DNA of 64,000 nt from Oceanospirillum maris DSM 6286. GTDB taxonomy: Bacteria; Pseudomonadota; Gammaproteobacteria; Pseudomonadales; Halomonadaceae. Location of the stretch: positions 186,001 to 250,000 of the forward strand of contig NZ_AUGW01000003.1 of NCBI RefSeq assembly GCF_000422865.1, in the 5' to 3' direction. Shown piece after piece: positions 3,982 through 38,147 of this stretch. Under the pieces are notes generated by a model. It ran no database searches, was not told the origin of the DNA, and saw nothing but the letters and a program-made list of their open reading frames with translations. A program made the translations under genes and the position numbers. How positions within the stretch are numbered: the first letter of the stretch is position 1; each line of letters starts with the position of its first letter.

Positions 3982-5877
3982 TTAGCAGCCAGAACTCAGC
4001 AGGGCTTCTACTTGCTCTAAGCTCATGCTACCTAAGTCTTCACCAGACCGAGTACGCAGAGCTACTGTTCCTGACTCTACTTCTTTATCGCCGATAACGG
4101 CAAGATAAGGCACTTTATGAATTGTGTGCTCACGGATTTTAAAGCCGATTTTTTCGTTTCTCAAGTCCGAAGATGCACGAATGCCTTTATTTCTCAGGCT
4201 TTTTTCAATTTTTGAGCAATAATCGGCTTGTTTATCAGTAATATTCATTACTACAAGCTGTTTTGGTGCCAACCAAGTCGGCAGTGCGCCAGCGTAGTGT
4301 TCAATTAAAATACCGATAAAGCGCTCGAAAGAACCCAAAATCGCACGATGCAACATGACAGGTGTATGACGCTCACCATCGTGATCAACAAATTCAGCGC
4401 CTAAACGCCCCGGCATCGAGAAGTCTACCTGAATAGTACCACATTGCCACACACGACCGAGACAATCTTTTAGTGAGAATTCAATTTTAGGGCCATAAAA
4501 GGCACCTTCACCTGGCAATTCTTCCCAATCAAGGTTCTTCATGGTTAAAGCATCAGCAAGGGCTCGCTCAGACTTATCCCAGACTTCATCAGAACCTACG
4601 CGCTCTTCTGGTCGAGTCGACAGTTTGTATTCAATGTCGGTGAAACCAAAATCATGATAAACCTTATGTAAGAAATCAATAAAGTTTAATACTTCGTCTT
4701 GGATCTGATTTTCTGTGCAGAAGATATGCGCATCATCTTGAGTAAAGCCACGAACACGCATCAAGCCGTGCAAAGAACCAGAAAACTCATTACGGTGGCA
4801 CGAGCCAAATTCAGCCAAACGTAGCGGTAGGTCACGGTATGACTTCAGGCCTTGGTTGAAGATCTGAATATGGCAAGGACAGTTCATCGGCTTAACGGCG
4901 TAGTCTCTATGCTCTGAGTGAGTCGTAAACATCTGGTCATGGAATTTCTCCCAATGGCCTGATTTTTCCCAAAGAGTACGTTCTACAACCTGTGGTGTTT
5001 TAATCTCTTTATAATCATGGTCATCCAGCATGCGGCGCATATAGCTTTCAATGGTCTGATATAAAGACCAGCCTTCAGGATGCCAAAACACCATGCCCGG
5101 TGCTTCTTCTTGCATATGGAACAGGTTCAGCTGCTTACCCAGCTTACGGTGATCGCGTTTTTCAGCTTCTTCTAAACGGTGCAAATGCTCTTTAAGGGTT
5201 TTTTTATCCCCCCAAGCGGTACCATAAATACGCTGTAGCATTTCATTCTTAGAATCGCCACGCCAATAAGCACCGGCAACTTTCATCAATTTGAATGCTT
5301 TAATATGACCTGTCGATGGCACATGAGGACCACGACACAGATCAATAAAATCACCTTGACTATAAAAAGACAAAGGCTGATCACCAGGAATATCCTTGAT
5401 AATCTCTACTTTGTACTTTTCACCTTTTTCTTCAAATAGACGAATAGCCTCTTCGCGAGATAATACAGAACGATCAATCTTGTGATCTTTCTTCACTAAC
5501 TCTTTCATGCGCCCTTCAATTTTTTCTAAATCTTCAGGCGTAAATGGGCGTTCAAATGCAAAATCGTAGTAGAAGCCGTTATCAATGACAGGCCCTATTG
5601 TAACCTGAGCCTCTGGAAACAGATCTTGGACAGCCATAGCCATCAAATGAGCACATGAGTGGCGAATGGTATCAATACCTTCTTCGTCACGGGCGGTCAA
5701 AATAGCAAGATCGCTGTCTTCTTCAATAAGAAATGAAGTATCAACGGGTGTTCCATTTACTTTACCGGCTAATGCGGCTTTAGCTAAACCAGCGCCGATA
5801 TCCGCAGCAACATCATGTACAGTTACCGCTTGATTAAATGAACGCTGACTACCATCAGGAAGAGTAATTACGGGCAT
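3982..5877 (-). CDS. thrS: Threonyl-tRNA synthetase
   Basis: Charges tRNA-Thr and edits mischarged serine. The 631-aa product starts [10 protein letters not shown], the family N-terminus. A 17-residue longer reading upstream is rejected because AGGA lies 7 nt before this ATG. Domains are TGS (about 1-60), the editing domain with [10 protein letters not shown] (about 70-80), the class II catalytic core with the zinc-cysteine motif [10 protein letters not shown] (about 330) and the anticodon-binding domain from about 530. It is the first gene of the thrS-infC-rpmI-rplT-pheST cluster. No E. coli-like thrS translational operator was identified. Confidence 0.97.
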
Positions 5878-6121
5878 GACAAGTCCTATATCACATAGAC
5901 CGACCCCTACGAAAGGCCTGTCTGTCAATTGATTAGAAAATACGAGTTAAACAATATATTAACTTCACGAAAACCTAGTCAGAATGCAAAAAAACAAACA
6001 CTTGAAGAGGCAAGGCGCGAGATAATATCACTTCAAGAACGGTCGCGCTATCGCATGGGCAAAAACATTAGATGACACTAAAAAATACAGCCTTTATCAT
6101 AGCCTTAGTACCCTTATTAGT

Positions 6122-6149
6122 GCTGCTGGTGCAGCCTTTTTCTTTTTTT
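6122..6149 (+). terminator. Possible intrinsic terminator without an upstream plus-strand gene
   Basis: GCTGC, loop TGGT, GCAGC, then CTTTTTCTTTTTTT. The 5-bp stem is short but the T-tract is long. There is no annotated plus-strand gene before it, so if functional it would end a small RNA or antisense transcript from the thrS promoter region. Low confidence. Confidence 0.35.
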
Positions 6150-6286
6150 CATTGTATATTGAGGCACTTAAGTCATAGTTTTAATCCCAACTAAGCCACA
6201 GGCTACAAATTGGATGCTAAAAACATATCAGTTTTAATACAGCGAATGATAAATAAGCACCCACAGAAGAACATGACTAGATCAAA

Positions 6287-6334
6287 CTCTATACCAAGCT
6301 CCAAATAAAGCTCTAAACCAAGTTCTAGACCAAG
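6287..6334. repeat. Four degenerate 12-nt tandem units
   Basis: Units CTCTATACCAAG, CTCCAAATAAAG, CTCTAAACCAAG and TTCTAGACCAAG follow each other exactly in register. The array ends 30 nt before the HD-GYP start codon, so it lies in that gene's 5' leader or promoter. Confidence 0.7.
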
Positions 6335-6364
6335 ACCCGAGCACTCGTAATCAAGGCAATTTTT

Positions 6365-7999
6365 ATGCAAAACCTCAGTCTCGCGCCCAATATATCAACA
6401 CTTGATACGCTCAATGAGATTGGCATTGCTCTTTCCGTTGAAAGTGATATGGACAGCTTACTCGAGCGGATTCTAATCAATGCCAAAAAGCTAACCAGTG
6501 CCGACGGTGGGACGCTGTATCTCTATAACAGCAAAATAAAATCTCTTGAGTTTAAAATTGTCCGCACCGACTCTTTGGGCATTAAGCTCGGAGGGAAGAC
6601 AGGCGCGCCGATTAGTGCAAACTTTCGCCCGCTGCCTCTTTTTCTAGAAGATGGAACACCAAACGAGCAGATGATTGCTGCCTACGCAGTCCTGCACGAC
6701 AAAACCATCAATATTGAAGATGCCTACACAGCCACTCAGTTTGATTTCTCCGGCACCCGAAAATTCGATGAAAGCACGGGATATCGCTCTAAGTCGTTTC
6801 TAACAATCCCGATGACCAACCATGAAAACGATATCATGGCCGTTCTTCAACTGCTGAATAAGGTCGATGAGAATGGCATCGTTATTCCTTTTTCACATCA
6901 AGATCAAGAACTTGCTGAATCTCTAGCATCTCAAGCAGCCGTTGCTTTAACGAATAAAGAGCTAATCGATGAAATGCAAAATCTGTTTGATGCTTTTATC
7001 AAACTAATCGCAACGGCCATCGATGACAAGTCACCTCACACGGGCAATCACTGTCGCCGTGTGCCGGAAGCCACCATGATGATCGCAGAGGCCGCCCATA
7101 ATTCAGATGATGATTATTTTAAGTCCTTTACGATGGATTCATCCGATCGCTACGAATTAAAGGTCGCTTCGTGGCTGCATGACTGTGGAAAAATCACAAC
7201 CCCCGTTCATGTGGTAGAGAAAGCCACAAAGCTAGAAACTATCCACGATAGAATTGAATTAGTTGCTGCGCGTTTTGAAATCCTAAAGCGGGATCTAGAA
7301 ATATCCATGCTAAAACAAAGGATTAGTGCGTTTGAAAAAGGCGAAACAGATCACACTTCCATCATTGATCACTATGAAAAACTTGCTGAATCCCTAGCAG
7401 AAGATCTAACGTACGTTAGAGAGTGTAATAAGGGCGGGGAGTTTATGGCCGACACAAAAATCGCCCATGTGGAAAGCCTGTCAAAATTGACGTGGATCGA
7501 TATGGAGGGCAACACACAGCCTCTTATTACAGAAGATGAGTGTTATAACTTGAGCATCCGCCGAGGGACAATCACTCAAGAAGAACGTGAGATCATCAAT
7601 AATCATATGACGATCACAATTCGCATGTTGGAGCAGCTTCCATTTCCAAAGCACTTGCGTAATGTTCCAGAATACGCAGGCGGGCACCATGAACGAATGG
7701 ATGGTAAAGGCTACCCTAAAGGGTTAACTCGCGACCAGATGTCTATTCCAGCACGCATTATGGCTGTCGCCGATGTTTTTGAAGCTCTAACATCTGCCGA
7801 TCGACCGTATAAGAAAGCGATGCCACTAACTCAGGCATTAACGATTATGGGACGCATGGTTGAAGATAATCATTTAGATCCTGATATTTTTCGTTTATTT
7901 GTAACAACAAAGACATATTTGCAATATGCAACGAAGTTTCTAAAACCTGAACAAATTGATAAGGTTGATACTTCAAGCCTGCCAGGGATAGCTAGCTAA
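6365..7999 (+). CDS. GAF and HD-GYP domain cyclic-di-GMP phosphodiesterase
   Basis: Predicted to hydrolyse cyclic-di-GMP. The 544-aa soluble protein has an N-terminal GAF sensor domain (about 15-200, SADGGTLYLY near residue 46) and a C-terminal HD-GYP domain. The metal-binding HD pair is in WLHDCGKI (about 270-277) and the second half is GGHHERMDGKGYP (about 439-451) followed by ARIMAVADVFEAL. The spacing between these halves, about 165 residues, is much longer than in classical HD-GYP domains and includes a predicted helical insert. Start has AAGG 8-10 nt upstream. It is followed by a cyclic-nucleotide phosphodiesterase gene on the same strand. Confidence 0.88.
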   Translation: MQNLSLAPNISTLDTLNEIGIALSVESDMDSLLERILINAKKLTSADGGTLYLYNSKIKSLEFKIVRTDSLGIKLGGKTGAPISANFRPLPLFLEDGTPNEQMIAAYAVLHDKTINIEDAYTATQFDFSGTRKFDESTGYRSKSFLTIPMTNHENDIMAVLQLLNKVDENGIVIPFSHQDQELAESLASQAAVALTNKELIDEMQNLFDAFIKLIATAIDDKSPHTGNHCRRVPEATMMIAEAAHNSDDDYFKSFTMDSSDRYELKVASWLHDCGKITTPVHVVEKATKLETIHDRIELVAARFEILKRDLEISMLKQRISAFEKGETDHTSIIDHYEKLAESLAEDLTYVRECNKGGEFMADTKIAHVESLSKLTWIDMEGNTQPLITEDECYNLSIRRGTITQEEREIINNHMTITIRMLEQLPFPKHLRNVPEYAGGHHERMDGKGYPKGLTRDQMSIPARIMAVADVFEALTSADRPYKKAMPLTQALTIMGRMVEDNHLDPDIFRLFVTTKTYLQYATKFLKPEQIDKVDTSSLPGIAS

Positions 8000-8000
8000 T

Positions 8001-8041
8001 GCTTAGTGATAAAAAACACCAGCTTAACGATAAAAAATACC
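8001..8041. repeat. Two imperfect 21-nt tandem units after the HD-GYP stop codon
   Basis: GCTTAGTGATAAAAAACACC followed by A, then GCTTAACGATAAAAAATACC. The first unit begins one base after the stop codon of the HD-GYP gene. It is one of several short duplications at gene ends in this window. Confidence 0.6.
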
Positions 8042-8091
8042 CATAAGCAAGCGACAACCATAACCAGCATGAGATAAAGGACATTACAACG

Positions 8092-8859
8092 ATGTGGATT
8101 TCGATTCTAGGCTGCAGCGGAGGCATCGGGCCTGGTAACCGTACAACCTCTATATTAGTTGATAACGACATTCTGCTAGATGCTGGAAGCGGCGTTGGCG
8201 ATCTTCAAATGCAACAGATGATTCAGATAAAGCATATTTTCATCTCACACTCTCATCTTGACCATATTGCCTTTCTTCCTTTTTTGGTCGATAGCATTTT
8301 CAGCCAAATAGAAGAACCGATACAGGTTTATGCGCTACCAGAAACGATTAAAGCACTTAAAGCTCATATCTTTAATTGGGTAGTATGGCCTGATTTTTCT
8401 GAGCTTCCGAATAAAGAAAAACCTGTTTTGGTTTTCAACGAGATAGCACCCTATCAAGATATACAGGTTGGAGAGCGCAACATAACCGCAGTGCCCGTCG
8501 AACATGTCGTGCCTGGGGTAGGTTATGTCGTGACAAACCAGCAAGGAAAAACGTTTGCGTTTAGTGGCGATACCGCTACTAATGATACCCTTTGGGAAGA
8601 GCTTAATAAGCGGCCAAGAGTTGACACGCTTATGATTGAGGCCGGTTATCCCAACAGCATGGAGTCCCTCAGCAAATTAGCTAAGCACTACACGCCTCAG
8701 ATCTTGGCACAAGATATTAAGAAGCTAAAGCACCGGCCTCATTTAATGATCTCTCATTTAAAACCGGGGTTAGAAGTCCAAATCTCCGAAGAATTACACG
8801 AAGAGCTCAAAGATTATAAGATCACCTGCATTAAAAGTGGCGATAGCATTCAGCTATAA
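8092..8859 (+). CDS. Class II-type 3',5'-cyclic-nucleotide phosphodiesterase, metallo-beta-lactamase fold
   Basis: Predicted to cleave cAMP to AMP. The 255-aa protein has an MBL fold. The HSHLDHI sequence at residues 53-59 is the class II cyclic-nucleotide phosphodiesterase signature. The N-terminal GCSGGIGPGNRTTS and the later AFSGDT also fit the family. AAGGA lies 10 nt before the ATG. It stands 92 nt after the HD-GYP gene on the same strand, so two second-messenger hydrolases may be co-transcribed. An alternative is a ribonuclease Z-like hydrolase, but the HxHLDH motif and length favour the cyclic-nucleotide enzyme. Confidence 0.8.
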   Translation: MWISILGCSGGIGPGNRTTSILVDNDILLDAGSGVGDLQMQQMIQIKHIFISHSHLDHIAFLPFLVDSIFSQIEEPIQVYALPETIKALKAHIFNWVVWPDFSELPNKEKPVLVFNEIAPYQDIQVGERNITAVPVEHVVPGVGYVVTNQQGKTFAFSGDTATNDTLWEELNKRPRVDTLMIEAGYPNSMESLSKLAKHYTPQILAQDIKKLKHRPHLMISHLKPGLEVQISEELHEELKDYKITCIKSGDSIQL

Positions 8860-35237: not shown

Positions 35238-35962
35238 TACAGCCCCCCTTGAGAAACAGTGGCCTGATTAAGGCTTGGCAAGTGCAGGTGTCGATCAAAG
35301 TGATCTTTTAAACTTTCATCATGGCTCACAAATACCAGCGAGCTGCCACTATCTTGGGTTTCTGCCATTAAAAGCTGTAAAAACTGATCTCGACTTTGAT
35401 GATCCAATGCAGAAGTCGGCTCATCGGCAATAATGACCGGCGGCGCGCCGATTAAAGCTCGGGCAACGGCCACTCGCTGCTGCTGACCGATGCTTAAACT
35501 CATCACCGAGTGCTGCCAAAGTGCTTCTGGCAACAATAAGCGGCTTAATAGGCGCTTTGCTTCGCTTAAGGCGCTAACCTGCCGAGTCTTAAGGGTCGCA
35601 GCCCGCTGACGGGAGAAATCACAGGCTAAGGTGATATTGTCCAGCACATTTAAGTAAGGTAGCAGATTAAATTGCTGAAAAACTAAACCAATATTATCCG
35701 CTCGAAAATGATCCCGCTGGGCAGCAGAAAGACGCTCAATACGCTGGCCTGCAATCTCAACCTGCCCTGCTTGAGGAACAACAACCCCTGCTAGAAGCGA
35801 TAAAAGCGTGCTCTTACCGCAACCACTGGGGCCATAAACAAAGAGACGCTCGCCAGCGTTTAGCTGAAAAGCGTCGATTTGTAACGCAGGCTTGGCCTGC
35901 TTAGGCCAAGCAAAACTGAGTTGGTTTAACGCAATGATGGACTTACCACTCAAGATTCCCAT
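35237..35962 (-). CDS. ABC transporter ATP-binding protein (LolD/MacB type)
   Basis: ATPase partner of the adjacent permease. Walker A GPSGCGKST lies near residue 50, Q-loop FQQFNLLPYLNV near 95, signature LSIGQQQRVAVARAL (note LSIGQ instead of LSGGQ) near 157 and Walker B VIIADEPTSALD near 181. The start is uncertain: ATG at 35962 is used here. GTG at 35977 and a TTG at 35953 are alternatives, and the TTG is best placed behind AAGGAG. The 5' end overlaps the 3' end of zrgA, so the genes are translationally linked. Confidence 0.88.
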   Translation of the reverse strand: MGILSGKSIIALNQLSFAWPKQAKPALQIDAFQLNAGERLFVYGPSGCGKSTLLSLLAGVVVPQAGQVEIAGQRIERLSAAQRDHFRADNIGLVFQQFNLLPYLNVLDNITLACDFSRQRAATLKTRQVSALSEAKRLLSRLLLPEALWQHSVMSLSIGQQQRVAVARALIGAPPVIIADEPTSALDHQSRDQFLQLLMAETQDSGSSLVFVSHDESLKDHFDRHLHLPSLNQATVSQGGL

Positions 35963-36662
35963 CTCCTTCTTGTTCACTCACAACAACAGTACGCTCAGAG
36001 ATCGCTTCAATACGTAGCAGCTCTAAATATGGCAGCTGACTGAACAGCTTTAATGTCGCAGGAGAAAGTGCATCACTATCGCAGTGGAAGGTGTAACGTG
36101 CCTCAACATTGACATGAGTTGAATGATCATGTCCATCGTGGTCATGCTCGCCTTCATCATGGTCGTGATCATCATGCACTTCTTCATCGTGGTCATGGTC
36201 GTGATCATCATGCGCCTCTTCATCGTGGCCATGGTCGTGATCATCATGCGCTTCTTCATCGTGGTCATGGTCATGGTTTTCATGCCCTGCTTCAGCCATA
36301 AAAGGCAGATCAACATCTTTTGACTCCAAAACACAACTGGCCGGTAATGCCAACCAGCGTTCAGGATGAGAAAAGACCTCTTTCGCATGGGCTAAGGAGG
36401 TATGCTCTTGATCATTTGTCGGTGGATGCTCATAGCCTAAAACACTATCAGCAGCGGCACTAAAGCTCACGCTCACCTCTTTACCTTCTTGAGCAATCGC
36501 CAAATTAGCAATGCCGTGCTCATGGGCACCAAACTCACTTGCACTTGACGATAAACTTGCAGTCAATGCAAAAGCGCTCGCCAGTAAAGGCAAGCCAATA
36601 CGCAAGGATAAAAGAGATAAAGGGCTACGAATAGGCAGTGCTCGATTGATAGTTTTTTTCAT
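35943..36662 (-). CDS. zrgA: ZrgA-like histidine-rich zinc-binding protein (DUF2796)
   Basis: Exported zinc-binding protein of a zinc-uptake operon. The 239-aa product has a signal peptide ending near SSSAS and the DUF2796 start EFGAHEHGIANLAIA. A His/Asp-rich segment (about 127-183) follows, in which a roughly 12-residue unit with DHDHDEEAHDD recurs three times. The C-terminal domain (YTFHCDSDALSPATLKLFSQ, split) ends at GDGNLEW. The His-rich repeat is encoded by nearly identical DNA repeats, so its length may vary between strains. It heads an operon with an ABC ATPase, permease and DUF3299 protein; a Zur-like box lies 103-115 nt upstream. Confidence 0.88.
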   Translation of the reverse strand: MKKTINRALPIRSPLSLLSLRIGLPLLASAFALTASLSSSASEFGAHEHGIANLAIAQEGKEVSVSFSAAADSVLGYEHPPTNDQEHTSLAHAKEVFSHPERWLALPASCVLESKDVDLPFMAEAGHENHDHDHDEEAHDDHDHGHDEEAHDDHDHDHDEEVHDDHDHDEGEHDHDGHDHSTHVNVEARYTFHCDSDALSPATLKLFSQLPYLELLRIEAISERTVVVSEQEGDGNLEW

Positions 36663-36764
36663 CATATATCCATTGGTACGATGCGAATATTAGGAGTTTA
36701 ACATGAGAGACTTAGGGTCAGTCTCTTAAAAAAGAAGGGGACATTTATAATCCAAAAACAATGA

Positions 36765-36856: not shown

Positions 36857-37492
36857 ATGAACGCTGAAAAACGTTACGAAATTTTTTCCCGCCTACGGGC
36901 TAATAATCCACGCCCCACGACAGAGCTTAATTACTCCAGCTCGTTTGAACTTTTGATTGCCGTTATTCTTTCAGCTCAAGCCACGGATGTCGGCGTTAAC
37001 AAAGCAACCGATAAACTTTACCCAGTAGCAAACACCCCTCAAGAAATTTACGATCTAGGCGTAGAAGGCCTAAAAACCTATATTAAAACGATCGGCTTAT
37101 TTAATAGCAAAGCTGAAAATGTAATAAAAACATGTCGAATGCTGTTAGATCGGCATAACGGCGAGGTTCCTCAAACACGGGAAGCATTGGAAGCACTGCC
37201 TGGCGTCGGCCGTAAGACCGCCAACGTAGTATTAAATACGGCTTTTGGCCAACCTACTATCGCCGTCGACACCCATATTTTTCGGGTATCCAATCGAACA
37301 GGCATCGCAAAGGGAAAAAATGTTGATGAAGTCGAGAAAAAACTCATCCGCAACGTTCCCAAAGAATTCAAGCTGGACATTCATCACTGGCTAATCCTGC
37401 ATGGCCGCTACACATGTATCGCCCGTAAACCACGCTGCGGTTCATGTATCATCGAAGATCTATGCGATTTTAAAGAAAAAACTGAGATTTAA
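36857..37492 (+). CDS. nth: Endonuclease III
   Basis: DNA glycosylase/AP-lyase that removes oxidised pyrimidines. The 211-aa protein has the helix-hairpin-helix LPGVGRKTANVVL (about 114-126) with the catalytic lysine, the catalytic aspartate in AVDTHIFRVSNR (about 137-148) and the C-terminal 4Fe-4S loop with the spacing C-X6-C-X2-C-X5-C (CIARKPRCGSCIIEDLC, about 188-204). It is the usual neighbour of rsxE but here is separated from it by about 9 kb of apparently inserted genes. Confidence 0.97.
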   Translation: MNAEKRYEIFSRLRANNPRPTTELNYSSSFELLIAVILSAQATDVGVNKATDKLYPVANTPQEIYDLGVEGLKTYIKTIGLFNSKAENVIKTCRMLLDRHNGEVPQTREALEALPGVGRKTANVVLNTAFGQPTIAVDTHIFRVSNRTGIAKGKNVDEVEKKLIRNVPKEFKLDIHHWLILHGRYTCIARKPRCGSCIIEDLCDFKEKTEI

Positions 37493-37601: not shown

Positions 37602-37619
37602 ATGTCATAAAAATGTCAT
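37602..37619 (+). promoter_or_regulatory. Pho-box-like direct repeat upstream of the small RHH gene
   Basis: ATGTCATAAAAATGTCAT consists of two ATGTCAT repeats separated by four A residues. The PhoB consensus is CTGTCAT-A(A/T)A(A/T)-CTGTCAT, so 16 of 18 positions fit, with only the first C of each half changed. It abuts a TTGACC -35 element. Confidence 0.65.
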
Positions 37620-37648
37620 TTGACCTTGCTAGAGGCAAAATGTATTGT
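37620..37648 (+). promoter_or_regulatory. Candidate sigma-70 promoter of the RHH gene
   Basis: TTGACC (37620-37625), 17-nt spacer, TATTGT (37643-37648). It starts immediately after the Pho-like box and its -10 overlaps a nested palindrome, so both activation and repression at this promoter are conceivable. Confidence 0.5.
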
Positions 37649-37675
37649 GATTGTATATACATTGCATATCACAAT
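37644..37675. promoter_or_regulatory. Nested palindrome over the RHH gene promoter
   Basis: Outer arms ATTGTGAT (37644-37651) and ATCACAAT (37668-37675) are perfect inverted repeats. Between them lies the 10-bp palindrome TGTATATACA (37652-37661). It covers the -10 and presumed transcription start, 31 nt before the ATG, a typical site for autorepression by a ribbon-helix-helix protein. Confidence 0.6.
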
Positions 37676-37706
37676 GATATTCAATAAAAGCAGGCAATGA
37701 TTACTT

Positions 37707-37880
37707 ATGCCGACGGAAAAAAAGAAAAAAAATAGCCAACTGATTATTCGTATTAGCCAAGAAGAGAGAAATCAGTTTGTCTCTCTATGCGATACGCTAG
37801 ATACCAGTGCCGCTCGGGAAGTACGCCGCTTTATACGCAGTTTTCTCGCAGAGCACCAGCAACCAATTGATCCTCGTTGA
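37707..37880 (+). CDS. Small ribbon-helix-helix-like protein, 57 aa
   Basis: Not recognised as a named gene. The 57-aa product starts MPTEKKKKNSQLIIRIS. A basic tail is followed by a beta-strand-like QLIIRIS (11-17) and two predicted helices (SQEERNQFVSLCDTLD, 17-32; SAAREVRRFIRSFLAEHQ, 34-51), the layout of a CopG/Arc-type ribbon-helix-helix dimer that binds palindromic operators. The upstream region contains a Pho-box-like repeat and a nested inverted repeat. The Shine-Dalgarno is weak. No toxin gene follows, so it is not an obvious antitoxin; the next gene is a 38-aa lysine-rich protein 101 nt away. Confidence 0.7.
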   Translation: MPTEKKKKNSQLIIRISQEERNQFVSLCDTLDTSAAREVRRFIRSFLAEHQQPIDPR

Positions 37881-37981
37881 TCAGGCTTAGTTCTGGATGC
37901 CTGCAATCTTGTCGCTCAAGTTAAACTTTAAGTTTGATGGGCGTTATTAAAAGTACTTTATGTACAACTAGGAGTAACATC

Positions 37982-38098
37982 ATGGCTAAGGTAGCTAAAA
38001 AAGACGTTAAAAAAGAGATCAAAGCACGCGAAGCTAAGATCGAGAAGCAAGAAGGCAAAGTTAAAAAGCTGAAAAAATCACTGAAAAAAGCTAAATAA
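37982..38098 (+). CDS. Lysine-rich 38-aa helical protein
   Basis: Not recognised. The 38-aa product begins MAKVAKKDVKKEIKAREAK and ends KKLKKSLKKAK; 17 of 38 residues are lysine and there is no aromatic residue. It would form one long basic amphipathic helix, perhaps binding nucleic acid or another polyanion. AGGAG stands 7 nt before the ATG and a strong terminator begins 26 nt after the stop. This indicates a discrete, probably well-expressed monocistronic mRNA. Codons are mostly AAA and GCT, the preferred type. Function unknown. Confidence 0.75.
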   Translation: MAKVAKKDVKKEIKAREAKIEKQEGKVKKLKKSLKKAK

Positions 38099-38123
38099 GC
38101 TTTTGTATTTCAGTCATTGAAGA

Positions 38124-38147
38124 AACGGCCTGCGGGCCGTTTTTTTT
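38124..38147 (+). terminator. Intrinsic terminator of the lysine-rich protein gene
   Basis: ACGGCC (38125-38130), loop TGCG, GGCCGT (38135-38140), then seven further T. A compact GC-rich stem with a long T-tract. Confidence 0.92.

Follow-up and report, generated by a model that had tools for sequence, protein, structure and literature searches.

What are the two small genes for that sit on the + strand of the window, by which we mean the whole 64,000-nucleotide stretch of Oceanospirillum maris DSM 6286 that was analysed, between nth (ending at 37492) and the gene of a BtuF-like binding protein (from 38336), and how are they controlled? The window is part of a 3.7-Mb genome (G000), whose closest named relatives in a homology search are O. 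linum and O. sanctuarii. An earlier note on this DNA had proposed a phosphate-induced, self-repressed small regulator, and we consider it fairly probable, from comparison of sequences, that the first gene encodes a self-repressed ribbon-helix-helix (RHH)-like regulator of a polyphosphate-linked two-gene operon, which in Oceanospirillum and a few further genera would respond to PhoB. The transcriptional control of bacterial polyphosphate is, to our knowledge, understood for few systems. Polyphosphate control would become accessible in many genomes together through a small conserved repressor whose operator can be recognised and which is linked to PPK1, PPK2, Ppx, SixA, CHAD and PhoB/PhoU; with that operator the regulon can be read from sequence.

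Gene order and promoter region

The unit opens with the Pho box ATGTCATAAAAATGTCAT (37602-37619, + strand), in which two TGTCA repeats stand 11 bp apart and 16 of 18 positions agree with CTGTCATAAAACTGTCAT, which we take to be the E. coli consensus and which served as scoring reference; O. linum and O. sanctuarii share the box. It is abutted by a -35 hexamer, TTGACC (37620-37625, +), invariant across the three Oceanospirillum species, and after a spacer of 17 nt follows the -10 hexamer TATTGT (37643-37648, +), which reads TATTGT or TATCGT across the three. Box and adjoining promoter are present as the earlier note described them. Taken alone, promoter-like hexamer matches are no better than chance in this region (1 found, 1.7 expected). 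From the end of the Pho box to the -10 is 23 nt, presumably farther than at pstS.

The note had also described a nested palindrome covering the -10. Its inner part, the 10-bp TGTATATACA, lies at 37652-37661 (no strand assigned), and upstream conservation and a matrix scan mark it as the core of a putative operator of the RHH protein. It stands 3' of the -10, so that it would cover the transcription start site and not the -10 itself. The outer 8-bp arms, ATTGTGAT at 37644-37651 and ATCACAAT at 37668-37675, do exist, but the two centres lie 3 bp apart and are not concentric, and we rejected the arms as an operator because neither O. linum nor O. sanctuarii has kept them. Downstream of the core, at 37662-37682 (+), the half-sites CATATCAC and GATATTC follow about 11 bp apart; they coincide with enriched columns (below) and are kept in the three species. 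The -35/-10 spacer has drifted among these species, while the 21 nt TGTATATACATTGCATATCAC, from TGTATATACA onward, are invariant.

The 57-aa reading frame (37707-37880, +), with a single in-frame ATG start, encodes an RHH-like DNA-binding protein with a Lys-rich N-terminal arm, as judged from its homologues, matches to RHH_9 and dN/dS. The frame is real, as had been claimed, but it is not solitary: it is the first of a two-gene unit whose second member, preceded by a Shine-Dalgarno-like AGGAG (37970-37974, +) read off the sequence, is a Lys-rich microprotein of 38 aa with one predicted helix (37982-38098, +), recognised by its recurrence behind the RHH gene, dN/dS and an AF2 model. A terminator-like hairpin with a 12-bp stem and a T run (38119-38146, +) stands behind both genes, and the hairpin scan of the locus found none between them. 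Farther upstream in the window, at 35943-36665 (-), lies the gene of a His/Asp-rich protein with repeats of the type HDHDHDEEAHDD, next to a pair of ABC transporter genes and perhaps metal-related.

The RHH-like protein

Pfam RHH_9 (PF19839) is matched by 57 of 61 family members at E<=0.1, the best at 5.7e-6, and the window protein itself scores 16.7 bits, below the cut-off of 23.4. Ten of the 61 match PHROG 876, 'transcriptional repressor'; the closest family models are RHH_9, PHROG 19878 and PHROG 876. The AF2 monomer of the 57-aa protein (mean pLDDT 75) has helices at residues 18-30 and 33-50 and no strand, and Foldseek with this model returned nothing at E<=0.001, which makes the monomer fold search uninformative. 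A PDB profile search gave a weak match (E 0.87) to DinJ, which we take to be an RHH antitoxin. The family core is highly conserved (Q11, R15, LDTSAAREIRRF), the arm carries a mean of 5.4 K/R among the last 12 residues ahead of the strand (n=80), and dN/dS of the gene is 0.05-0.13 in the Oceanospirillum trio.

Within the genus 5 of 6 genomes hold the gene, and so do 43 of 390 in the order (E<=0.001); with the limit at E<=1e-10 it was found in 10 of 369 class genomes and in 14 of 398 phylum genomes. The distribution is patchy, over chromosomes and a few plasmids (15 of 72,556 plasmid records). Two genomes (G118 and G169; L172 and L169) hold two RHH copies each, one beside phoB. One distant homologue (L008, 22% identity, E 8e-4) was left out of set A2. 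A phage origin was considered and dropped, there being no match among 50,697 phage records, though PHROG models match. A small TonB-C-like secreted protein, called by eye, adjoins the RHH gene in L057, L080, L113, L119 (one cluster) and L169.

The Lys-rich microprotein

For the comparisons we used 81 loci, namely the best 80 of 170 homologous genome-contig stretches and the window, mostly from Gamma- and Alphaproteobacteria. In 68 of them a gene for a Lys-rich microprotein of 32-47 aa lies behind the RHH gene; it was not found there in the other 13, nor behind the G118 and G169 copies. The microprotein model was built from 66 sequences of these same 68 loci, and elsewhere among 10,675 ORFs nothing scores above 7 bits. 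Independently of any model, a reading frame exceeding 35% K+R is found in 65 of 80 downstream segments and in 2 of 1070 control segments. A second model, from whose training the alpha and delta loci were withheld, recovers 12 of the 17 alphaproteobacterial microproteins at E<=2.5e-6, four of the remaining ones weakly (E 0.3-5.6) and one not, and finds none behind the RHH gene in five delta/zeta loci.

The two genes do not overlap; their median gap is 47 nt over 65 loci. In the Oceanospirillum trio dN/dS of the microprotein is 0.03-0.23, and both genes stay below 0.25 in seven of seven pairs, two of the values being 0 only through synonymous saturation. AF2 predicts a single helix over residues 6-37 with a mean pLDDT of 90. 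Searches of Pfam and NCBIfam yielded no convincing family for it, only weak coiled-coil-like matches, and PADLOC gave no convincing match for the window copy. With its homologues the 38-aa partner makes up a further, widespread family of microproteins. Among the 369 class genomes the microprotein was found in 7, of which 4 also have the RHH gene, adjacent in all 4. As to the genomes with the microprotein only, the match in G765 (30.7 bits, partial) is regarded as doubtful, in G437 PPK2 is encoded on the same strand at a distance of about 1 kb, and in G548 no marker gene was seen by eye. Both plasmid loci examined, L197 and L198, have the microprotein ORF and the operator, and the incomplete gene tables of these plasmids do not list the microprotein. 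The RHH-microprotein pair is, as far as sequence comparison goes, conserved and of wider occurrence than first claimed, and the same comparison is the whole basis for the function that we propose.

The operator

TGTATATACA occurs at 9 or more of its 10 positions within 250 nt upstream of the RHH gene in 70 of the 81 loci, to be compared with 1 of 81 in the 250 nt downstream, 1 of 80 in a far upstream segment and 0 of 81 in shuffled upstream sequence. The 11 loci without it are L055, L065, L086, L088, L094, L095, L102, L103, L113, L121 and L127; in L102 the operator heads the operon and is not directly before the RHH gene, L127 is alike with a weaker site, and in L103 it falls just past the end of the locus (in L219). 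Beyond the core, 72 aligned sites are enriched at columns +14 to +19 and more weakly at +24 to +30, and these columns correspond to ATATnC-type half-sites spaced by about 11 bp, as would be expected of RHH dimers lying side by side.

A matrix trained on 67 sites, with Oceanospirillum left out, scores 23.9 and 21.2 at the window operator; the next best place in the 64 kb reaches 9.3, and the best scores on ten shuffled windows were 7.7-13.4. That the RHH protein has its own operator, as had been claimed, is thus strongly supported by comparison, and the homology search finds frame and operator conserved in relatives and not peculiar to the O. maris genome. We infer from this that the protein would bind TGTATATACA and repress its own promoter. 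In this respect it resembles the RHH autorepressors of the MetJ/Arc/CopG type, being a small RHH-like protein with a palindromic operator over its own promoter and several half-sites on one helix face; what sets the window family apart is its conserved core, its Lys-rich arm and its linkage to Pho and polyphosphate genes, and the literature searched yielded no such linkage for RHH autorepressors.

A genome scan of G000 found one exact TGTATATACA core, and the operator is known there solely at its own RHH operon; none was found in the fetched G000 stretches with ppk1, CHAD-ParA, pst and phoB, where the best matrix score is 4.6. An exact TGTATATACA precedes genes that we take to be umuDC-like in O. 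linum and O. sanctuarii (L129 and L131, around 1501). It lies within a longer sequence that looks like, presumably, a LexA site, and these two were not counted as RHH operators. For the remaining TGTATATACA sites in G002 (O. beijerinckii) and G003 (O. sediminis) no link to phosphate was apparent by eye, and they were not counted either; G003's own RHH site (L136) was outside that reading.

The single high-scoring operator in the window and the single exact core in G000 make the RHH protein look site-specific, which argues against the idea that both proteins simply pack DNA and that their phosphate neighbours reflect a compaction induced by starvation, not polyphosphate. A Lys-rich helix paired with a Lys-rich RHH arm would suit such a role, and the AlgP-type precedent binds DNA according to the part of the source available. 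It would leave the repeated link to PPK, Ppx, SixA and CHAD (below) unexplained, and we find it unlikely.

The Pho box and possible phosphate control

Searching the 3.7 Mb of G000 with the Pho pattern at no more than one mismatch gave 6 places, against 1 for a control pattern. The window box is one of two with zero mismatches, and other places lie upstream of pstC, of phoB and, some 250-300 nt off, of a CHAD gene. The last of these belongs to a CHAD-ParA operon with an upstream Pho box (L194, 3282-5551, on contig C10 of G000), a gene pair also found in the RHH operons of Desulfuromonas; in G000 it is linked only through that box of its own.

A Pho box of at least 16/18 within 300 nt was found in 8 of 80 relatives and in 2 of 1304 control segments. 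The eight are two Oceanospirillum, two Sneathiella, Paraglaciecola marina, Marinobacterium nitratireducens (on the other strand) and two of a fifth genus, and the layout of Pho box, TTGAC and operator is common to Oceanospirillum and the two loci of the fifth genus. No such box is present in the other 72, O. sediminis and O. beijerinckii included. Three other Sneathiella-type loci are without it. PhoB scores above the cut-off in all five genus genomes searched.

The claimed link to phosphate is supported as far as sites and neighbouring genes go. In its favour are the box in three Oceanospirillum species, the excess over control segments, PhoB in 5/5 genomes and the Pho and polyphosphate neighbours; with 72 of 80 relatives lacking the box, control by PhoB is not a trait of the family, and phosphate induction would be lineage-specific. 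For Oceanospirillum the arrangement suggests activation of the operon by PhoB. As in other Pho regulon promoters the box stands beside a sigma-70-type promoter; it differs in that it precedes an intact -35 and in the RHH operator over the start.

Phosphate and polyphosphate neighbours

The 107 RHH loci fall into 72 neighbourhood groups, for which 3-6 kb were fetched on each side, less at contig ends, and 13 of these groups hold genes for PhoB/PhoR, PstB-PhoU, PPK1, PPK2, Ppx, SixA or CHAD. With tblastn at 40% identity we found PhoB in 4 groups, PPK1 in 3, PPK2 in 2 and PhoU in 1, and CHAD in 2 further groups at 29-32% identity. At the same 40% threshold 37 other window genes match 4 groups in all, 0.11 each; at a looser threshold with no identity limit they match 18, for which reason only matches confirmed by family or of at least 40% identity were counted. 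PhoU, PPK2, PhoB and CHAD had been noticed before this control was designed, and PPK1 and Ppx were added afterwards. Library models confirm, in the loci tested, PPK1, PPK2, Ppx, SixA-type His_Phos_1 (SixA being the name that we presume for these genes), CHAD, CYTH, ParA-like, PhoU, PhoB and PhoR.

The neighbours vary, and a fixed gene neighbourhood was rejected. The arrangements include phoB-phoR-RHH (L057), pstB-phoU beside RHH (L153/L188 and L150/L186), operator-RHH-ppk1-sixA (L110), operator-RHH-microprotein-ppk1 (L104, and L181 by a 35-bit model match), ppx-sixA-ppk2-RHH (L103), operator-CHAD-ParA-RHH (L102) and CHAD-ParA-CYTH-RHH (L127). Seven added loci (L210-L216) gave one CHAD neighbour. 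The thirteenth group is that of L187 (G455, 4319-8304), a compact polyphosphate locus in which ppx is divergent from RHH-microprotein-PPK2-CHAD-like; its PPK2 is of the polyphosphate:AMP phosphotransferase class, with less than 40% identity to the query, and its CHAD-like ORF was called by eye, a PDB search having given nothing. It would serve the family well as a model locus. Of the 13 groups L085/L166 is the weakest; its PPK2 lies about 2 kb away and other genes intervene. Response regulators in L093, L112, L127, L183 and L184 (identity to PhoB <=37%), generic ABC matches to PstB and a PstC-like match in pieces in L212 were not counted.

Operators in trans

An 18-mer of core and half-site was scanned, at no more than one mismatch, in eight genomes picked for their RHH loci and gave 14 matches at 12 places, against 3 for a control pattern. 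Five of the places are already-known operators of RHH loci and seven are new; of the new ones the two exact ones are linked and the five with one mismatch are not. All four exact 18-mers found precede RHH-ppk1, CHAD-ParA-RHH, a lone microprotein gene, and ppx...RHH / ppk1, the latter two being those not known before the scan, and three of them lie in two Desulfuromonas MAGs (G1115 and G1116). In G1115 the lone microprotein gene is 140 nt downstream of the operator and the RHH gene is on another contig, behind CHAD-ParA; in G1116 the exact operator lies in the divergent promoter of ppx-sixA-ppk2-RHH and ppk1. G1118 (L127) has no 18-mer match at this limit. Since the new exact operators stand before a lone microprotein gene and polyphosphate genes, the link through the operator is independent of adjacency. 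Operators before polyphosphate genes were found in Desulfuromonas and Desulfosarcina MAGs, not in the G000 stretches tested.

These operators bear on another explanation, that of a conserved, self-regulated RHH and microprotein module of some unrelated function, the phosphate links being local accidents of gene order. The 59 of 72 groups in which the fetched stretches hold no marker gene would fit it well, as would the many relatives without a Pho box. We nevertheless judge it improbable, as the marker groups are far above the random-gene control at the same threshold, the RHH gene lies inside operons of several polyphosphate genes, and operators in trans precede polyphosphate and microprotein genes. 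A toxin-antitoxin pair, with RHH as autoregulated antitoxin and the Lys-rich microprotein as toxin, would suit two tiny neighbouring genes with the regulator first, the palindromic operator, the patchy spread and the plasmid copies, but is very improbable, because in G1115 the genes are on separate contigs, each under an operator, the RHH gene occurs without the microprotein in phosphate operons and in the 13 of 81 loci mentioned, the protein stops at residue 57, shortly after helix 2, with little space for a toxin-binding tail, the genes are separated and do not overlap, the microprotein has no convincing family match, and the gene linkage found is not that of such a pair.

Proposed mechanism and known systems

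The conservation of both genes and of the operator, their pairing and their neighbours are established at the level of sequence. With the RHH gene and operator before polyphosphate genes in other lineages, repression of polyphosphate-linked genes is the best reading of the family's role. In Oceanospirillum, phosphorylated PhoB on the Pho box, beside the -35, would raise transcription at low phosphate, and an RHH dimer on TGTATATACA over the start, with the half-sites on one helix face, would limit its own operon. The output of the operon would then be its own brake and a basic microprotein. Through this pair, phosphate reserves may be under a form of control that has been overlooked; no description of an RHH-microprotein operon was found in the literature searched.

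The partner of the basic, helical microprotein is most likely, if speculatively, an acidic polymer, polyphosphate first, to judge from context, charge and the precedent of AlgP. AlgP is a Lys-rich protein on polyphosphate granules of Pseudomonas, according to the available part of PMC9239181. Like AlgP and PhaF the microprotein is very basic and Lys-rich, and it perhaps bridges polyphosphate to the nucleoid, as their tails are thought to do; AlgP, however, has a long disordered tail of KPAA repeats, whereas the microprotein is 32-47 aa with one predicted helix, a KPAA-type tail is absent from the microprotein sequences, and no sequence relation was seen. CHAD is a polyphosphate-binding module in what is accessible of PMC6537752. 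In several lineages the RHH gene sits in clusters of such CHAD, CYTH, PPK, Ppx and SixA genes, for which no RHH regulator was found in the literature searched. The PolS-PolR two-component system of Microlunatus regulates polyphosphate and phosphate-transport genes and, as the accessible portion of PMC6754071 presents it, works through a response regulator, in contrast to an RHH autorepressor with a microprotein. The small DUF1127 proteins of Agrobacterium are likewise very small and tune the phosphate response, but are of another family and, in the part of PMC12501420 at hand, act through protein contact with PhoR.

A bolder form of the proposed repressor, which we think unlikely, would have the RHH protein sense polyphosphate directly, its Lys-rich arm binding the polymer in competition with operator DNA, so that a rise in polyphosphate would derepress the microprotein, which would act as polyphosphate chaperone or granule anchor, and in certain lineages the ppk, ppx and CHAD genes as well. 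The polyphosphate-binding arm is a guess. If true, this would be a feedback loop of the ligand type for polyphosphate.

The stretch between the RHH operator and ppk1 in Desulfuromonas G1116 holds a small reading frame (L219, about 1549-1710, +) that has a Lys tail as well as a CxxC motif and is possibly another form of the Lys-rich partner.
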